Made by a program: the position numbers and the translations under genes | From: Syntrophales bacterium | GTDB taxonomy: Bacteria > Desulfobacterota > Syntrophia > Syntrophales > Fen-1087 | DNA length: 32,030 bases | Assembly (NCBI GenBank): GCA_030656035.1 | Contig: JAUSOK010000198.1 | Location: forward strand, 1 to 32,030 | Reading direction: 5' to 3' | Part shown: piece by piece, positions 3,629-21,407 of the stretch | How positions within the stretch are numbered: the first letter of the stretch is position 1 | How the letters are laid out: every line of letters starts with the position of its first letter | Notes under the pieces: generated by a model | The model's database searches: none | Told to the model about the DNA's origin: nothing | Seen by the model: the letters and a program-made list of their open reading frames with translations, nothing else

Positions 3629-3894
3629 AAAGACAGGCATAATACAAGTGTTCTGATTATGGCTCTCATCCTTCCGGCGCAGGGCGTCGGCTTTATGCAT
3701 TCTAAGCCATTTTCAAGGTTTGGGCAATCTATTTCAACATCGAATTTGTCATTGCAACGCGAGCAGAGCCTTGCACTCGGCTCAATTTTTTGTGGCAATG
3801 CTTCGGCAATTCTGTTATGTTTATCGGCAACGTAAAAATGGGAAATTATTTTATCATTGAGCTCATGTTTGAATTTTGAATGAGGAGGCAAAAA
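3629..3894. other. Intergenic stretch, no gene recognised
   Basis: This 266-base spacer is richer in A+T than its surroundings and separates the TlpA-like gene from the cyclic-nucleotide-binding gene. A reverse-strand frame stays open across it and encodes a Cys-containing stretch (SRCNDKFDVEIDC), but it lacks a start and ribosome site of its own and runs antisense into the next gene. I see no clear promoter. Confidence 0.4.
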
Positions 3895-4380
3895 ATGATT
3901 AAAGCGAACGATCTGAAGCAGTTTAAATTCTTTAAAAGCTTCACGGACAATCAACTGGAGAAACTGGCCGCAATGGCTGTGGAAGAATCCTATGAGGCCG
4001 GGACCCAGATGTACAAGAAGGGTGATCCGGCCAGAAGCCTCTTCATGTGCCTGGAGGGCAAGGTGGTGATGGTCATGGACAATTACATGGGGCCGCATCG
4101 GGCGCCCATGCAGATTACCGTGGATATCGTCACGAAGGAGGAATCCATGGGCTGGTCCGCCGTCGTGGAACCCTACCTGTACACCCTGGGGGCCCTGTGT
4201 ATCGATAACTGTCGGCTCATCGCCCTGGATGCGGCCAGATTGCGGGCGCTCATGGAAGATGATTGCGAGCTGGGCCTCAAGATCATGCAGGCCACGGCCA
4301 AAGTGATCGCCAGCAGGCTGACCCATACCAGAATCCTGCTGGTGGGCGAACGGGGACTTTCTCATCTGACCGATTATTGA
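3895..4380 (+). CDS. Single-domain cyclic-nucleotide-binding protein
   Basis: A 161-residue protein made of one cNMP-binding (CAP effector) beta-barrel with its C-terminal helix. The order is: a short helix with FKFFKSFTDNQLEKLA, then YEAGTQMYKKGDPARSLFMCLEGKV, which is the typical barrel entry, then ESMGWSAVVEP in the position of the phosphate-binding cassette. There is no helix-turn-helix after the barrel, so it probably does not bind DNA itself and would act by protein contact or as a ligand sensor. The canonical Gly-Glu/Arg-Ala cassette residues are replaced, so the ligand is uncertain. GGAGG before the ATG at 3895 decides the start; an upstream in-frame ATG at 3880 lies within that ribosome site. 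It leads a tight cluster with the selenoprotein gene 35 bases downstream. Confidence 0.85.
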   Translation: MIKANDLKQFKFFKSFTDNQLEKLAAMAVEESYEAGTQMYKKGDPARSLFMCLEGKVVMVMDNYMGPHRAPMQITVDIVTKEESMGWSAVVEPYLYTLGALCIDNCRLIALDAARLRALMEDDCELGLKIMQATAKVIASRLTHTRILLVGERGLSHLTDY

Positions 4381-4415
4381 TGAGCGACCCTTGAAAGAAT
4401 GAAGGAGGCAACACC

Positions 4416-4631
4416 ATGTCTGACCCGATCATCATTTACGGCAAGGCAGGCTGACCCTATACCGACGAGGCTAGGGCGGCCTACAAAGACAAGGCGATTT
4501 ATATAGACGTCAAGTCAGATCCGGCCGGGCTGCAGGAGATGCTGAAACTCTCCGGCGGCGCGCGACGCGTCCCGCTGATTGTAGATGGTAAGAATATCAC
4601 CATCGGTTACGGCGGAACCTGAGGGGTATAA
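4416..4631 (+). CDS. Glutaredoxin-like selenoprotein with two in-frame UGA (Uxx-star type)
   Basis: This gene reads correctly only if two TGA codons, at 4452-4454 and 4620-4622, are decoded as selenocysteine (Sec, U). The 71-residue product begins MSDPIIIYGKAG-U-PYTDE, with Sec13 at the thioredoxin-fold active site where glutaredoxins have Cys. Its core has RRVPLIVDG, the cis-proline strand of glutaredoxins, then ITIGYGGT-U-GV with Sec69 three residues from the end and a TAA stop at 4629-4631. From memory, this matches the Uxx-star glutaredoxin-like (seleno)protein family of anaerobic bacteria, including the C-terminal GGT-(C/U)-GV motif. A strong GGAGG precedes ATG. A near-ideal bacterial SECIS hairpin follows the second UGA. 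The role is inferred to be thiol/selenol redox chemistry; the partner is unknown. Ordinary gene calling misses it. The sel genes needed for decoding are not in the window. Confidence 0.82.
4455..4482 (+). promoter_or_regulatory. Possible SECIS region after the first UGA
   Basis: Two mutually exclusive small hairpins can form after the UGA at 4452-4454. One has a 5-bp stem CCCTA/TAGGG (4455-4459 with 4472-4476). The other has AGGC/GCCT (4468-4471 with 4479-4482) around a 7-base loop starting 17 bases after the UGA. The second has the better spacing for SelB. Both are short, so this is weak evidence by itself. Confidence 0.35.
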
Positions 4632-4633
4632 CC

Positions 4634-4650
4634 GCCCATCGGTGATGGGC
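4634..4650 (+). promoter_or_regulatory. SECIS hairpin for the second UGA
   Basis: GCCCATC (4634-4640) pairs perfectly with GATGGGC (4644-4650) around a GGT loop. The loop begins 18 bases after the UGA at 4620-4622. This fits the published bacterial SECIS rules as I remember them: a stem of 4-16 bp, a small loop with G in its first two positions, and an apical loop 16-37 bases from the UGA. GGU also resembles the SelB-contacted loop of E. coli fdhF. The hairpin lies beyond the TAA stop, so it is free of coding constraint. No T-run follows, which argues against a terminator. Confidence 0.7.
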
Positions 4651-4676: not shown

Positions 4677-4817
4677 ATGAAAAATCAAACCCTTGAATCG
4701 CTCATTGAGCTCGCAATCGTAAACGAACAGGAGGCCTATGACTCCTACATGGAGCTCTGCAAGCTCGTGGATGACAAGACCGCCAAGGACACCCTGAAGT
4801 TTTTGTCAGACAAATGA
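4677..4817 (+). pseudogene. Truncated ferritin/rubrerythrin-like protein
   Basis: A 46-codon reading frame with a strong GGAGGGG ribosome site. It encodes the first helix and a half of a ferritin-like (rubrerythrin-type) four-helix domain: ESLIELAIVNEQEAYDSYM, with the helix-1 metal-ligand Glu pattern, then KTAKDTLKFLSDK and a stop. Full-length relatives continue with further glutamate/histidine-bearing helices, so the product lacks most of the metal site. Its stop overlaps the ATG of the downstream hydrolase gene (ATGA at 4814-4817). I infer that a deletion joined the ferritin 5' end to the hydrolase gene. The remnant may still work as a coupled leader for hydrolase translation. It lies 45 bases after the selenoprotein gene. 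Confidence 0.6.
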
Positions 4818-5901: not shown

Positions 5902-6330
5902 ATGGTAAAAGCAAAAAAAGGGGATCTTTTCAGTTGTGAAGTTTGTGGTCTGATTGTAACGGTTGATGAGATTGGTCTGGGCATGGCGGAAATCAATTGC
6001 TGCAAAATGGGCATGGCGAAAGGCAAGGCGGCCGCCGACAAAGCGAAGAAGAGAGGCCTGTTGGCGGCGGCAAAAGCCCCCGCGAAAGCCGTCAAACCCG
6101 TCGCGGCAAAGGCGAAAACGCCGGCCAAACCGGCTTCCAAGGCGGCGGTAAAACCCAAGGCAGCCGTGAAAAAAGCAGCCCCGGCCAAGAAACCGGCAGC
6201 CCCAAAACCCAAGGCAGCCGTGAAAAAAGCGGCCCCGGCAAAAGTAGCCCCGGCAAAAGCGGCCCCGGCCAAGAAACCGGCAGCCCCAAAACCCAAGGCA
6301 GCCAAAGCGCCTGTCAAAGCCAAAAAGTAG
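5902..6330 (+). CDS. Desulforedoxin domain fused to histone-H1-like tail
   Basis: A 142-residue protein in two clearly different parts. Residues 7-38 form a desulforedoxin/rubredoxin-like knuckle: GDLFSCEVCG (Cys12, Cys15) and INCCKMGM (adjacent Cys33-Cys34). This matches the CxxC...CC spacing of desulforedoxin, which binds one tetrahedral iron or zinc. From about residue 39 to the end the chain is almost only Lys, Ala and Pro (KAAPAKKPAAPKPK units), resembling bacterial histone-H1-like tails. There is no signal peptide, so the basic tail is in the cytoplasm and probably contacts nucleic acid; this is inference. A strong AGGAGGAG ribosome site, its own promoter and a strong terminator make it monocistronic. 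The codon-level repeats in the tail suggest expansion by slippage. Lengths may differ among relatives. Confidence 0.8.
   Translation: MVKAKKGDLFSCEVCGLIVTVDEIGLGMAEINCCKMGMAKGKAAADKAKKRGLLAAAKAPAKAVKPVAAKAKTPAKPASKAAVKPKAAVKKAAPAKKPAAPKPKAAVKKAAPAKVAPAKAAPAKKPAAPKPKAAKAPVKAKK
6151..6303 (+). repeat. Internal DNA repeats encoding the H1-like tail
   Basis: A 30-base unit at 6151-6180 recurs with one change at 6205-6234 (54-base period). A 35-base unit at 6185-6219 recurs at 6269-6303. They stay in frame and encode the KPKAAVKKAAPAK-type segments of the tail. Confidence 0.8.
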
Positions 6331-18532: not shown

Positions 18533-19858
18533 TTACCGTGCAATTGAAACAATCCGGTCCATATCTTCCCGGGACAGCATTTCCGTGGCGCACAGCAGCA
18601 GACTGTTCTTCAGTTCGGGATATTCGTTTTCAAGCGCGTAGCCGCCGATGATTCCTTCGTTTTGCAATCTCCGGTTGACGACCTTGGCATCGGGGCAGCG
18701 CATGGCGAATTCATTGTAAACGGGGCCGGAGAAGACCGGCTCCCAGCCCTCAAGCCGGGATAGATGTGTTTTGAGATATTGGGCTTTCTGGAAATTGAGT
18801 TCGGCCAGTTTTTTGAGGTTTTTTCCGAGGCAGACCAGATAGACTGCGGCGGCCAGGGCGCAGAGGGCTTCATTGGAGCAGATGTTGGACGTCGCCCTTT
18901 CGCGCCGTATGTGCTGTTCCCGGGTCTGCAGCGTCAGGACAAAGCCGCGCTGGCCGTCCTTGTCGAGAGTAGCCCCGGCGAGCCGACCAGGTATTTTGCG
19001 CAGGAATTTGTCCGTGCTCGCAAAAATGCCGAGATAGGGACCGCCGTAATTCATCGGATTGCCGAAGGCCTGTCCCTCCCCGACAACGAAATCCGCGCCC
19101 ATAGCACCTGCGGGCTTGAGGATGCCCAGGGAGGTGGCTTCCGTAAAACCGGAAACGAGCAGCGCCCCCTTTGCATGCACAGCGGCTTCAATAGAAGTAA
19201 TATCTTCAATAATTCCGAAAAAATTCGGCGTCTGGACCAGGACGGCGGCGGTATTGTGATCCACGGCCTCCGCCAGGACAGACCGATTCAGTTGGCCATT
19301 GTCAGCGTAGGGAACTTCGACCACCTCGTAGCCATTGGACCAGGCGTAGGTCTTCACGACCTGGCGGTATTGGGGATGCACGGAGCGGTTGATTACGATC
19401 TTCGTCCGGTTGAGCGTCTTGGCGGCCAGCACGGCGGCCTCGGCCATGGCGGAGGCCCCGTCGTACATGGAGGCGTTGGCCACCTGCATCCCCGTCAATC
19501 CGGCGATCATGGTCTGATATTCATAAATGGCCTGGAGGATACCCTGGCTGATTTCGGCCTGATAGGGCGTGTAGGCCGTGTAGAATTCCGAACGCGAAAT
19601 GACATGCCCCACCACGGCGGGGATGAAATGGTGATAGGCCCCGGCACCCGTCAGTGTGACGGCGGGGATCACATTCTGCGCGCCGATCTGCTGCATCAGC
19701 CCCCAGACCTCCTGTTCGGACATTGCGGGCGGCAAATTGAGGAGTTGCTTGAGTCTGTACTTTTCAGGAATGTCGGCAAAAAGGTCGTCCAGTCCGGCGA
19801 TCCCAATGGTCTGCATCATTTTTTTCTGATCTTCCGGGGTGTGGGGGACATAGTCCAT
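18533..19858 (-). CDS. gcvPA: Glycine dehydrogenase (decarboxylating) subunit 1
   Basis: A 441-residue N-terminal-type half of the split P protein. Its opening MDYVPHTPEDQKKMMQTIG and the segments FTAYTPYQAEISQGILQ and NASMYDGASAMAEA are diagnostic of GcvPA. MNYGGPYLGIF and RLAGATLDKDGQRGFVLTLQTREQHIRRE lie in the second half. It forms the alpha subunit of an alpha2beta2 enzyme with GcvPB. It begins 15 bases after gcvH ends, with AAGGAGC as ribosome site. The length is normal and nothing is missing. Confidence 0.96.
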   Translation of the reverse strand: MDYVPHTPEDQKKMMQTIGIAGLDDLFADIPEKYRLKQLLNLPPAMSEQEVWGLMQQIGAQNVIPAVTLTGAGAYHHFIPAVVGHVISRSEFYTAYTPYQAEISQGILQAIYEYQTMIAGLTGMQVANASMYDGASAMAEAAVLAAKTLNRTKIVINRSVHPQYRQVVKTYAWSNGYEVVEVPYADNGQLNRSVLAEAVDHNTAAVLVQTPNFFGIIEDITSIEAAVHAKGALLVSGFTEATSLGILKPAGAMGADFVVGEGQAFGNPMNYGGPYLGIFASTDKFLRKIPGRLAGATLDKDGQRGFVLTLQTREQHIRRERATSNICSNEALCALAAAVYLVCLGKNLKKLAELNFQKAQYLKTHLSRLEGWEPVFSGPVYNEFAMRCPDAKVVNRRLQNEGIIGGYALENEYPELKNSLLLCATEMLSREDMDRIVSIAR

Positions 19859-19873
19859 CGGATGCTCCTTGAA

Positions 19874-20272
19874 TCAGTGTTTTTCTTCCCGTATCAGGGC
19901 GTCATAGGCGGCGGCGGCCATGAGGCCGTCGAGTTCCGCCGGGTTGTCCATTTTCAGTTTTACGATCCAGCCCTCGCCGAAAGCGTCCTGATTGATCAGT
20001 TCCGGCCGGCTCTCCAGCGGCAGATTCACCGCGATGACTTCGCCGCCGACCGGGGCGAAAACGTCGGAGACCGATTTGACGGACTCGACGACGGCCAGAG
20101 GGGCCGTCTGTTCGACCTTTTTCCCCACAGGCGGCAGTTCCACAAAGACGATGTCCGTGAGCATTTCCTGGGCGTAATCGGTAATGCCGACGGTCGCCGT
20201 CCCGTCGCCGTGATCGAGCGCCCATTCGTGTTCTTTTGAATATTTACGGTCCGTTGGATTGGGTTTTGCCAT
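19874..20272 (-). CDS. gcvH: Glycine cleavage H protein
   Basis: A 132-residue lipoyl carrier. The lipoylated lysine is Lys66 in VVESVKSVSDV, with the usual KEHEWA opening, VGITDYAQEMLTDIVFVELP and the GEGWIVKLK end. It shuttles the aminomethyl and reduced lipoyl arm among the P, T and L proteins, all of which are encoded in this operon. The start at 20272 is set by GGGAG eight bases upstream, which lies in the 13-base gap after gcvT; the longer frame starting at 20299 would overlap gcvT and lacks a ribosome site. Confidence 0.97.
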   Translation of the reverse strand: MAKPNPTDRKYSKEHEWALDHGDGTATVGITDYAQEMLTDIVFVELPPVGKKVEQTAPLAVVESVKSVSDVFAPVGGEVIAVNLPLESRPELINQDAFGEGWIVKLKMDNPAELDGLMAAAAYDALIREEKH

Positions 20273-20285
20273 ATTTTTTCTCCCT

Positions 20286-21407
20286 TCAGATGAATACATT
20301 ATAAAAGACAGCCTTGTCTTTGCGGTTGTAAAAAGGAAGCCTTACGATTTTTGCCCGGACGGGACGCTCCCGGATCAGGATGTCGATTTCGGTTTCCGGT
20401 TCGGTGTAGATGACGGGCACAAAGGCCAGCCCCACGGCCTTGTTGAGGGTCGGGGCCAGCGTGCCGGACGTGACTTCGCCGATTTCGCGGCCGTATTTAA
20501 GGACTTTATATCCCTGCCGGGCGATGCCGCGATCGACCATTTCAAATCCGACCAGTTTGCGGGAAACGCCTGTTTTCTTCTGCCCGCTCAGCGCGTCGCG
20601 GCCGATGAAGTCCTTTTCGAGATCGACGACCCAGCCGTAGGTAACTTCAAGGGGCGATACGGACTCGTCCATCTCGTGGCCGTAAAGCATCATGCCCGCT
20701 TCCAGCCGCAGCGTATCGCGGGCGCCGAGCCCGACGGGTTTCAGTCCCGCCCCGGCGCCGGCGGCCAGCAGGCGGTCCCAGGCGACGCCGATCCGCTCGC
20801 CGGCGGCGTAAATCTCGAAACCATCCTCCCCGGTATAGCCGCTTCTGGAGACGAGAGCGGGAATCCCCGCCACGATCGTGTTCAGGCAATTATAATATTT
20901 CAGGGCGTTCAGATCCGCTTCAGTTAGAGACTGCAGAATCGCCTGTGCCTGAGGACCCTGAATGTCCAGTTTACCGAGTTCATCCGTCCGGTCGGAAATC
21001 TCGACCCCGGAAAACCCCTCCGCTTTCTTCCGCGTTTCCAGCCACTGGAGATCCTTATCCTTGCTGGCGGCGTTTGTCACGAGCATGTAATGGTCGTTTT
21101 CAAGCCTGTACACCGTCAGATCATCCAGGATGCCGCCCTGTTCATTCGTCAGAACGCAGAGCTTCATCTGGCCGACGGCCTGCTTCTCTAGATTCCGGCT
21201 GACAACACGCTGCAGCAGCGCGAGGGCCTGCGGTCCCTTGACTTCGATTTCTCCCATGTGGCAGATGTCGAAAAGGCCTGCTCTGGTCCGGGTCGCGTGG
21301 TGCTCTTCGATGACATTGGTGTACTGGACCGGCATGAGCCACCCGCCGAAATCGATCATTTTAGCGCCGAGGGAAAGATGGCGCTCATAAAGGGGCGTTT
21401 TTTTCAT
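20286..21407 (-). CDS. gcvT: Aminomethyltransferase (T protein)
   Basis: A 373-residue tetrahydrofolate-dependent aminomethyltransferase that releases ammonia and makes methylene-THF from the GcvH intermediate. Family landmarks are TPLYERHLSLGAKMIDFGGW at the start, ARTRAGLFDICHMGEIEV, SRSGYTGEDGFEIY in the middle and LGARDTLRLEAGMMLYGHEMD after it, all matching GcvT rather than sarcosine oxidase relatives. AGGAGACC precedes ATG. It is the first catalytic gene of the glycine-cleavage operon, 48 bases after a zinc-ribbon gene. Confidence 0.96.
   Translation of the reverse strand: MKKTPLYERHLSLGAKMIDFGGWLMPVQYTNVIEEHHATRTRAGLFDICHMGEIEVKGPQALALLQRVVSRNLEKQAVGQMKLCVLTNEQGGILDDLTVYRLENDHYMLVTNAASKDKDLQWLETRKKAEGFSGVEISDRTDELGKLDIQGPQAQAILQSLTEADLNALKYYNCLNTIVAGIPALVSRSGYTGEDGFEIYAAGERIGVAWDRLLAAGAGAGLKPVGLGARDTLRLEAGMMLYGHEMDESVSPLEVTYGWVVDLEKDFIGRDALSGQKKTGVSRKLVGFEMVDRGIARQGYKVLKYGREIGEVTSGTLAPTLNKAVGLAFVPVIYTEPETEIDILIRERPVRAKIVRLPFYNRKDKAVFYNVFI

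Follow-up and report, generated by a model that had tools for sequence, protein, structure and literature searches.

The window analysed here, a 32,030-nucleotide stretch of a Syntrophales genome, carries on its forward strand a single 71-codon frame that contains two UGA codons (Table 1). With UGA read as selenocysteine (Sec, U) the product is MSDPIIIYGKAGUPYTDEARAAYKDKAIYIDVKSDPAGLQEMLKLSGGARRVPLIVDGKNITIGYGGTUGV. This frame, with Sec at both UGAs, had been proposed in a first-pass annotation of the sequence, and its coordinates proved exact. No ordinary open reading frame of at least 60 amino acids on the forward strand lies over it, so the gene is missed by ordinary ORF calling. We scanned the stop codons of 31 ORFs for other Sec read-through genes in the window and found no further convincing candidate. 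On the reverse strand a small gene (19874-20299) and its successor (18533-19858; together 18533-20299) share a frame, with a TGA and five codons between them, and are probably an ordinary operon.

Table 1. Features of the two-Sec locus, in window coordinates.
Feature	Position	Strand	Description	Basis
Upstream gene, cyclic-nucleotide-binding-domain protein	3880..4380	+	start probably ATG 3895	PF00027
Ribosome-binding site AAGGAGG	4402..4408	+	7 nt before ATG 4416	read in sequence
CDS, UXX-star selenoprotein family 1	4416..4631	+	71 aa, two Sec; ATG 4416-4418, stop TAA 4629-4631	translation with TGA=U; NCBIfam NF041114
UGA codon, Sec13 (residue 13)	4452..4454	+	in UPYT, at the position of the Grx catalytic Cys	TGA in 66/72 family genes, TGC/TGT in 6
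Candidate SECIS hairpin for Sec13, AGGCT-AGGGC-GGCCT	4468..4482	+	13 nt past UGA, inside CDS	
UGA codon, Sec69 (residue 69)	4620..4622	+	the U of U-x-x-stop	TGA in 72/72 family genes
SECIS hairpin for Sec69, GCCCATC-GGT-GATGGGC	4634..4650	+	7-bp stem; 11 nt past UGA, beyond the stop codon	
Downstream gene, truncated ferritin/rubrerythrin-like ORF	4677..4817	+	46 aa	phmmer to L092 and others

Both neighbours recur in part of the family. Among 105 loci, which have short flanks, a relative of the cyclic-nucleotide-binding gene was present at 9, a ferritin/rubrerythrin-like gene at 16, and both at 7; the former also accompanies the relatives L016, L064, L092, L096, L097 and L099. The ferritin/rubrerythrin-like gene, so short in the window, is intact and about 155 aa long in the same-genus locus L092. 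In the window it passes directly into the gene of an alpha/beta hydrolase, by a deletion or an assembly join. In L064 (1655-1987, reverse strand), from a relative of the same taxonomic order, the ferritin-like gene behind the selenoprotein also seems broken, with only its C-terminal part readable in that frame. Another gene of the window, at 5902-6330, encodes a small protein with a borderline desulfoferrodoxin N-terminal domain (23.1 bits against 23) and a long, repetitive tail rich in Ala, Lys and Pro.

The read-through product matches the model NF041114, "UXX-star selenoprotein family 1", over its full length with the second Sec covered (positions 1-70 of 70; 108.1 bits, cutoff 72, E=1.9e-31), in agreement with the Uxx-star assignment of the first-pass annotation. 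Three further models belong to the same superfamily, but only that of the wider Uxx-star subfamily, NF041212, was passed (81.6 bits against a cutoff of 66), while the window product scored far under the cutoffs of Uxx-star families 2 and 3 (NF041211 and NF047338). The Pfam glutaredoxin model PF00462 was matched at 28.7 bits (cutoff 22.9). The protein has the UxxT active site, here UPYT, and two Sec, the second of them U69, and it ends in UGV followed by TAA, an instance of the C-terminal U-x-x-stop that is conserved in the family; by our reading, the name U-x-x-star describes this second Sec (U, two residues, stop). In none of these respects (full-length match, UxxT, C-terminal U-x-x-stop, number of Sec) is there a substantial difference between the window product and family 1.

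Proteins of this type were entered with the motif UxxT in a 2022 review (PMC9312934), and NF041114 appears in a 2026 review under the name "Distant Grx-like protein 1", with the motif UxxT and two Sec per protein (PMC13188914). Two Sec in so short a protein, from which the first-pass annotation had surmised an internal selenenylsulfide- or diselenide-based redox cycle, are therefore a documented property of the family. Since family 1 has already been described with two Sec, the finding stands without being novel: the window encodes a genuine and typical protein of UXX-star family 1, of a kind known before. In the literature on this family we found no biochemical function on record.

The AlphaFold model (window protein and relatives; pLDDT 90, pTM 0.75) places strands and helices in glutaredoxin order and ends shortly past the last strand, so that the usual third helix is missing. 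The best Foldseek matches are glutaredoxins, and a sequence-profile search of the PDB likewise matched glutaredoxins. The predicted fold is thus that of a glutaredoxin without its last helix, which, with the PF00462 match, bears out the earlier glutaredoxin-like reading. In the model Sec13 lies at the start of helix 1, in the place of the catalytic Cys, as had been supposed for the Sec of UPYT, and Sec69 lies in the C-terminal tail past the last long strand. The site is of the monothiol type, because the partner position of CxxC holds Thr. Classical glutaredoxins (PF00462, E. coli Grx3) share the fold and the catalytic position with the window product, but they have CPYC; the window product lacks the pair of the dithiol enzymes, having Thr in UPYT at the second position, has no C-terminal helix, and carries a second Sec near its end. 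The Sec-glutaredoxin of Clostridium oremlandii likewise has Sec at the glutaredoxin active site, but with one Sec per protein and the motif UxxC (PMC13188914), as against two Sec and UxxT here.

Of 395 genomes from the phylum, 100 have a match to NF041114 above cutoff, in most cases with two TGAs in frame. We read 72 family 1 genes in full. Residue 13 is U in 66 of them and C in 6, and residue 69 is U, encoded by TGA, in all 72, giving 66 U/U and 6 C/U proteins. Site 69 is followed by a variable residue (mostly G) and then by V or I, with the stop codon three codons past the UGA in 71 genes and four in the remaining one; in those 71 the true stop is TGA in 37, TAA in 18 and TAG in 16. Because TGA alone is kept at site 69, with a second stop fixed behind it, the UGA at site 69 is very unlikely to be the true stop. 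In one genome (L027) two genes of the family, each with two Sec, lie in tandem at 1064-1276 and 1489-1701.

A second set comprises 36 loci, all recruited through Cys at residue 13. The single-sequence search for related loci had given no matches, presumably because its query had C in place of Sec and its patterns were built on TGY and not TGA; with the same kind of pattern, the alignment-based locus search returned only Cys13 forms. In this set residue 69 is U in 33 of 36; the exceptions are L121 and L123, which have Cys there, and L122, which has Ser. The two sets merged, with duplicates removed (n=106), hold 67 U/U, 36 C/U, 2 C/C and 1 C/S proteins, proportions that do not reflect natural frequencies because the second set was selected for Cys13. 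As the first-pass annotation had anticipated of homologues, relatives thus exist in which residue 13 is U or C and residue 69 is U, rarely C, and the Cys codons of L121 and L123 show that a thiol can replace the selenol at site 69. On a weakly supported tree, and in a sample partly selected for Cys13, we counted at least 21 changes between Sec and Cys at site 13 and 3 changes of state at site 69. That Sec13 is freely swapped for Cys and Sec69 only rarely suggests that Sec69 is the more demanding residue.

An Rfam scan of the window gave no matches, and SECIS elements were therefore judged by hairpin counts. A hairpin of 5-9 bp lies 3' of the second UGA in 90% of the family genes, starting about 8-15 nt past the UGA and mostly beyond the stop codon. 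Stems of at least 6 bp occur there in 81% of genes, compared with 7% of shuffles and 7% of a control stretch at +150 nt. Its five innermost pairs covary, with 4-6 pair types at each, and the loops are mostly GGT, GTG, GGC or GTT; the hairpin of the window is identical in a same-genus relative. After the UGA of site 13 a different, smaller hairpin was found in 63 of 67 Sec13 genes and in 14 of 39 Cys13 genes, counts that come from related genes and from a hairpin lying within coding sequence; a tree-aware test of hairpin against Sec/Cys state had only two supported independent pairs. The evidence for a SECIS-like hairpin after each UGA is strong at the second site, where it covaries, and moderate at the first.

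These observations support reading both UGAs as sense codons for Sec. It is very improbable that only the first UGA is recoded and UGA 4620 is a real stop, yielding a 68-residue protein with a single Sec: TGA normally ends translation, and only two residues lie beyond it here, but all 72 genes have TGA at a site where any of the stops would serve, a conserved x-V/I follows, with a real stop that in every gene falls within one codon of the same place, the covarying hairpin stands at about 11 nt past the UGA, and where L121 and L123 have Cys codons or L122 a Ser codon at site 69 the frame continues to the same end. The invariant TGA, the fixed later stop and the covarying hairpin count strongly against this reading, which we rejected. 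Still less credible is a decayed pseudogene with two nonsense mutations, a reading that could appeal to the truncated ferritin-like gene downstream on the contig and is refuted by conservation: of the 72 family genes, which come from many genera, 66 have the same two UGAs, with the protein constraint intact. The window gene is, with high confidence, a translated two-Sec member of UXX-star selenoprotein family 1.

The machinery that such a gene needs was sought in the window's own genome, where selA, selB and selD are all above their cutoffs. The draft assembly, which has 209 contigs and is 91% complete, yielded no passing selC (tRNA-Sec), the weak matches being ordinary tRNAs. A tRNA-Sec (anticodon TCA, 77 bits) is present in a same-genus genome, G405, which also carries a two-UGA copy of the window gene with 73% identity. 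Most likely, the selC of the window genome lies in an assembly gap. The sel genes named by the first-pass annotation are therefore present as far as selA, selB and selD go, while selC is absent from the draft and present in the same genus. The selD of this genome (L047, G000:C113:21497-22426) itself has one in-frame TGA, and SelD is probably a selenoprotein too.

In the best-supported reading SelB and tRNA-Sec decode both in-frame UGAs as Sec, with a separate hairpin a short way 3' of each UGA as the signal; the hairpin of the second UGA lies beyond the stop codon. How the two Sec residues work together can be proposed only tentatively. Sec13 would be the attacking selenol of the monothiol-type UPYT site and Sec69 its resolving partner, the protein cycling between a reduced form and one with an internal Sec13-Sec69 bond (Cys13-Sec69 in relatives). 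We prefer this mechanism of attack, resolution and internal bond, a plausible form of the diselenide or selenenylsulfide cycle surmised at first, which we infer at somewhat less than an even chance. It is a possibility, though a rather doubtful one, that Sec69 and not Sec13, which occupies the glutaredoxin position, is the indispensable residue, and that the pair acts as an internal switch, either a diselenide or a Cys-Sec one. To our knowledge, no glutaredoxin has such an internal diselenide or Cys-Sec redox cycle.

A serious rival, if on balance an improbable one, is that the two Sec form a metal- or organometal-binding pair and not a redox couple. The 2026 review suggests that Sec residues of UXX-star proteins may act as metal-binding ligands (PMC13188914). 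The glutaredoxin fold, with UPYT at the catalytic position, argues against this function, and a scan of ten neighbours found no metal-resistance gene beside the window copy. The uneven replacement of the two residues is in its favour: Sec69 is replaced far less often than Sec13, and in the usual case it is the N-terminal nucleophile that matters most. Slightly less probable again is that the residues make two separate contacts, Sec13 undergoing monothiol glutaredoxin-like exchange with a low-molecular-weight thiol, and Sec69 contacting a partner protein through a mixed selenenylsulfide. A single chalcogen in the active site (UxxT) would suit such a division, as would the position of Sec69 two residues from the C-terminus, which recalls the C-terminal Sec of thioredoxin reductases; on the other side, we identified no partner, and the partners of glutaredoxins dock near the same face.

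Returning to the internal Sec13-Sec69 cycle, a protein of this kind may be a source of reducing power under peroxide or metal stress; part of the family has the ferritin/rubrerythrin-like neighbour. By itself the window gene adds nothing beyond the curated family NF041114. It is nevertheless a short double-Sec gene, overlooked by ordinary ORF calling, that is real and selected at both of its UGAs, and the contrast of its two sites, Sec13 being replaceable and Sec69 almost fixed, offers a direct lead for functional testing.
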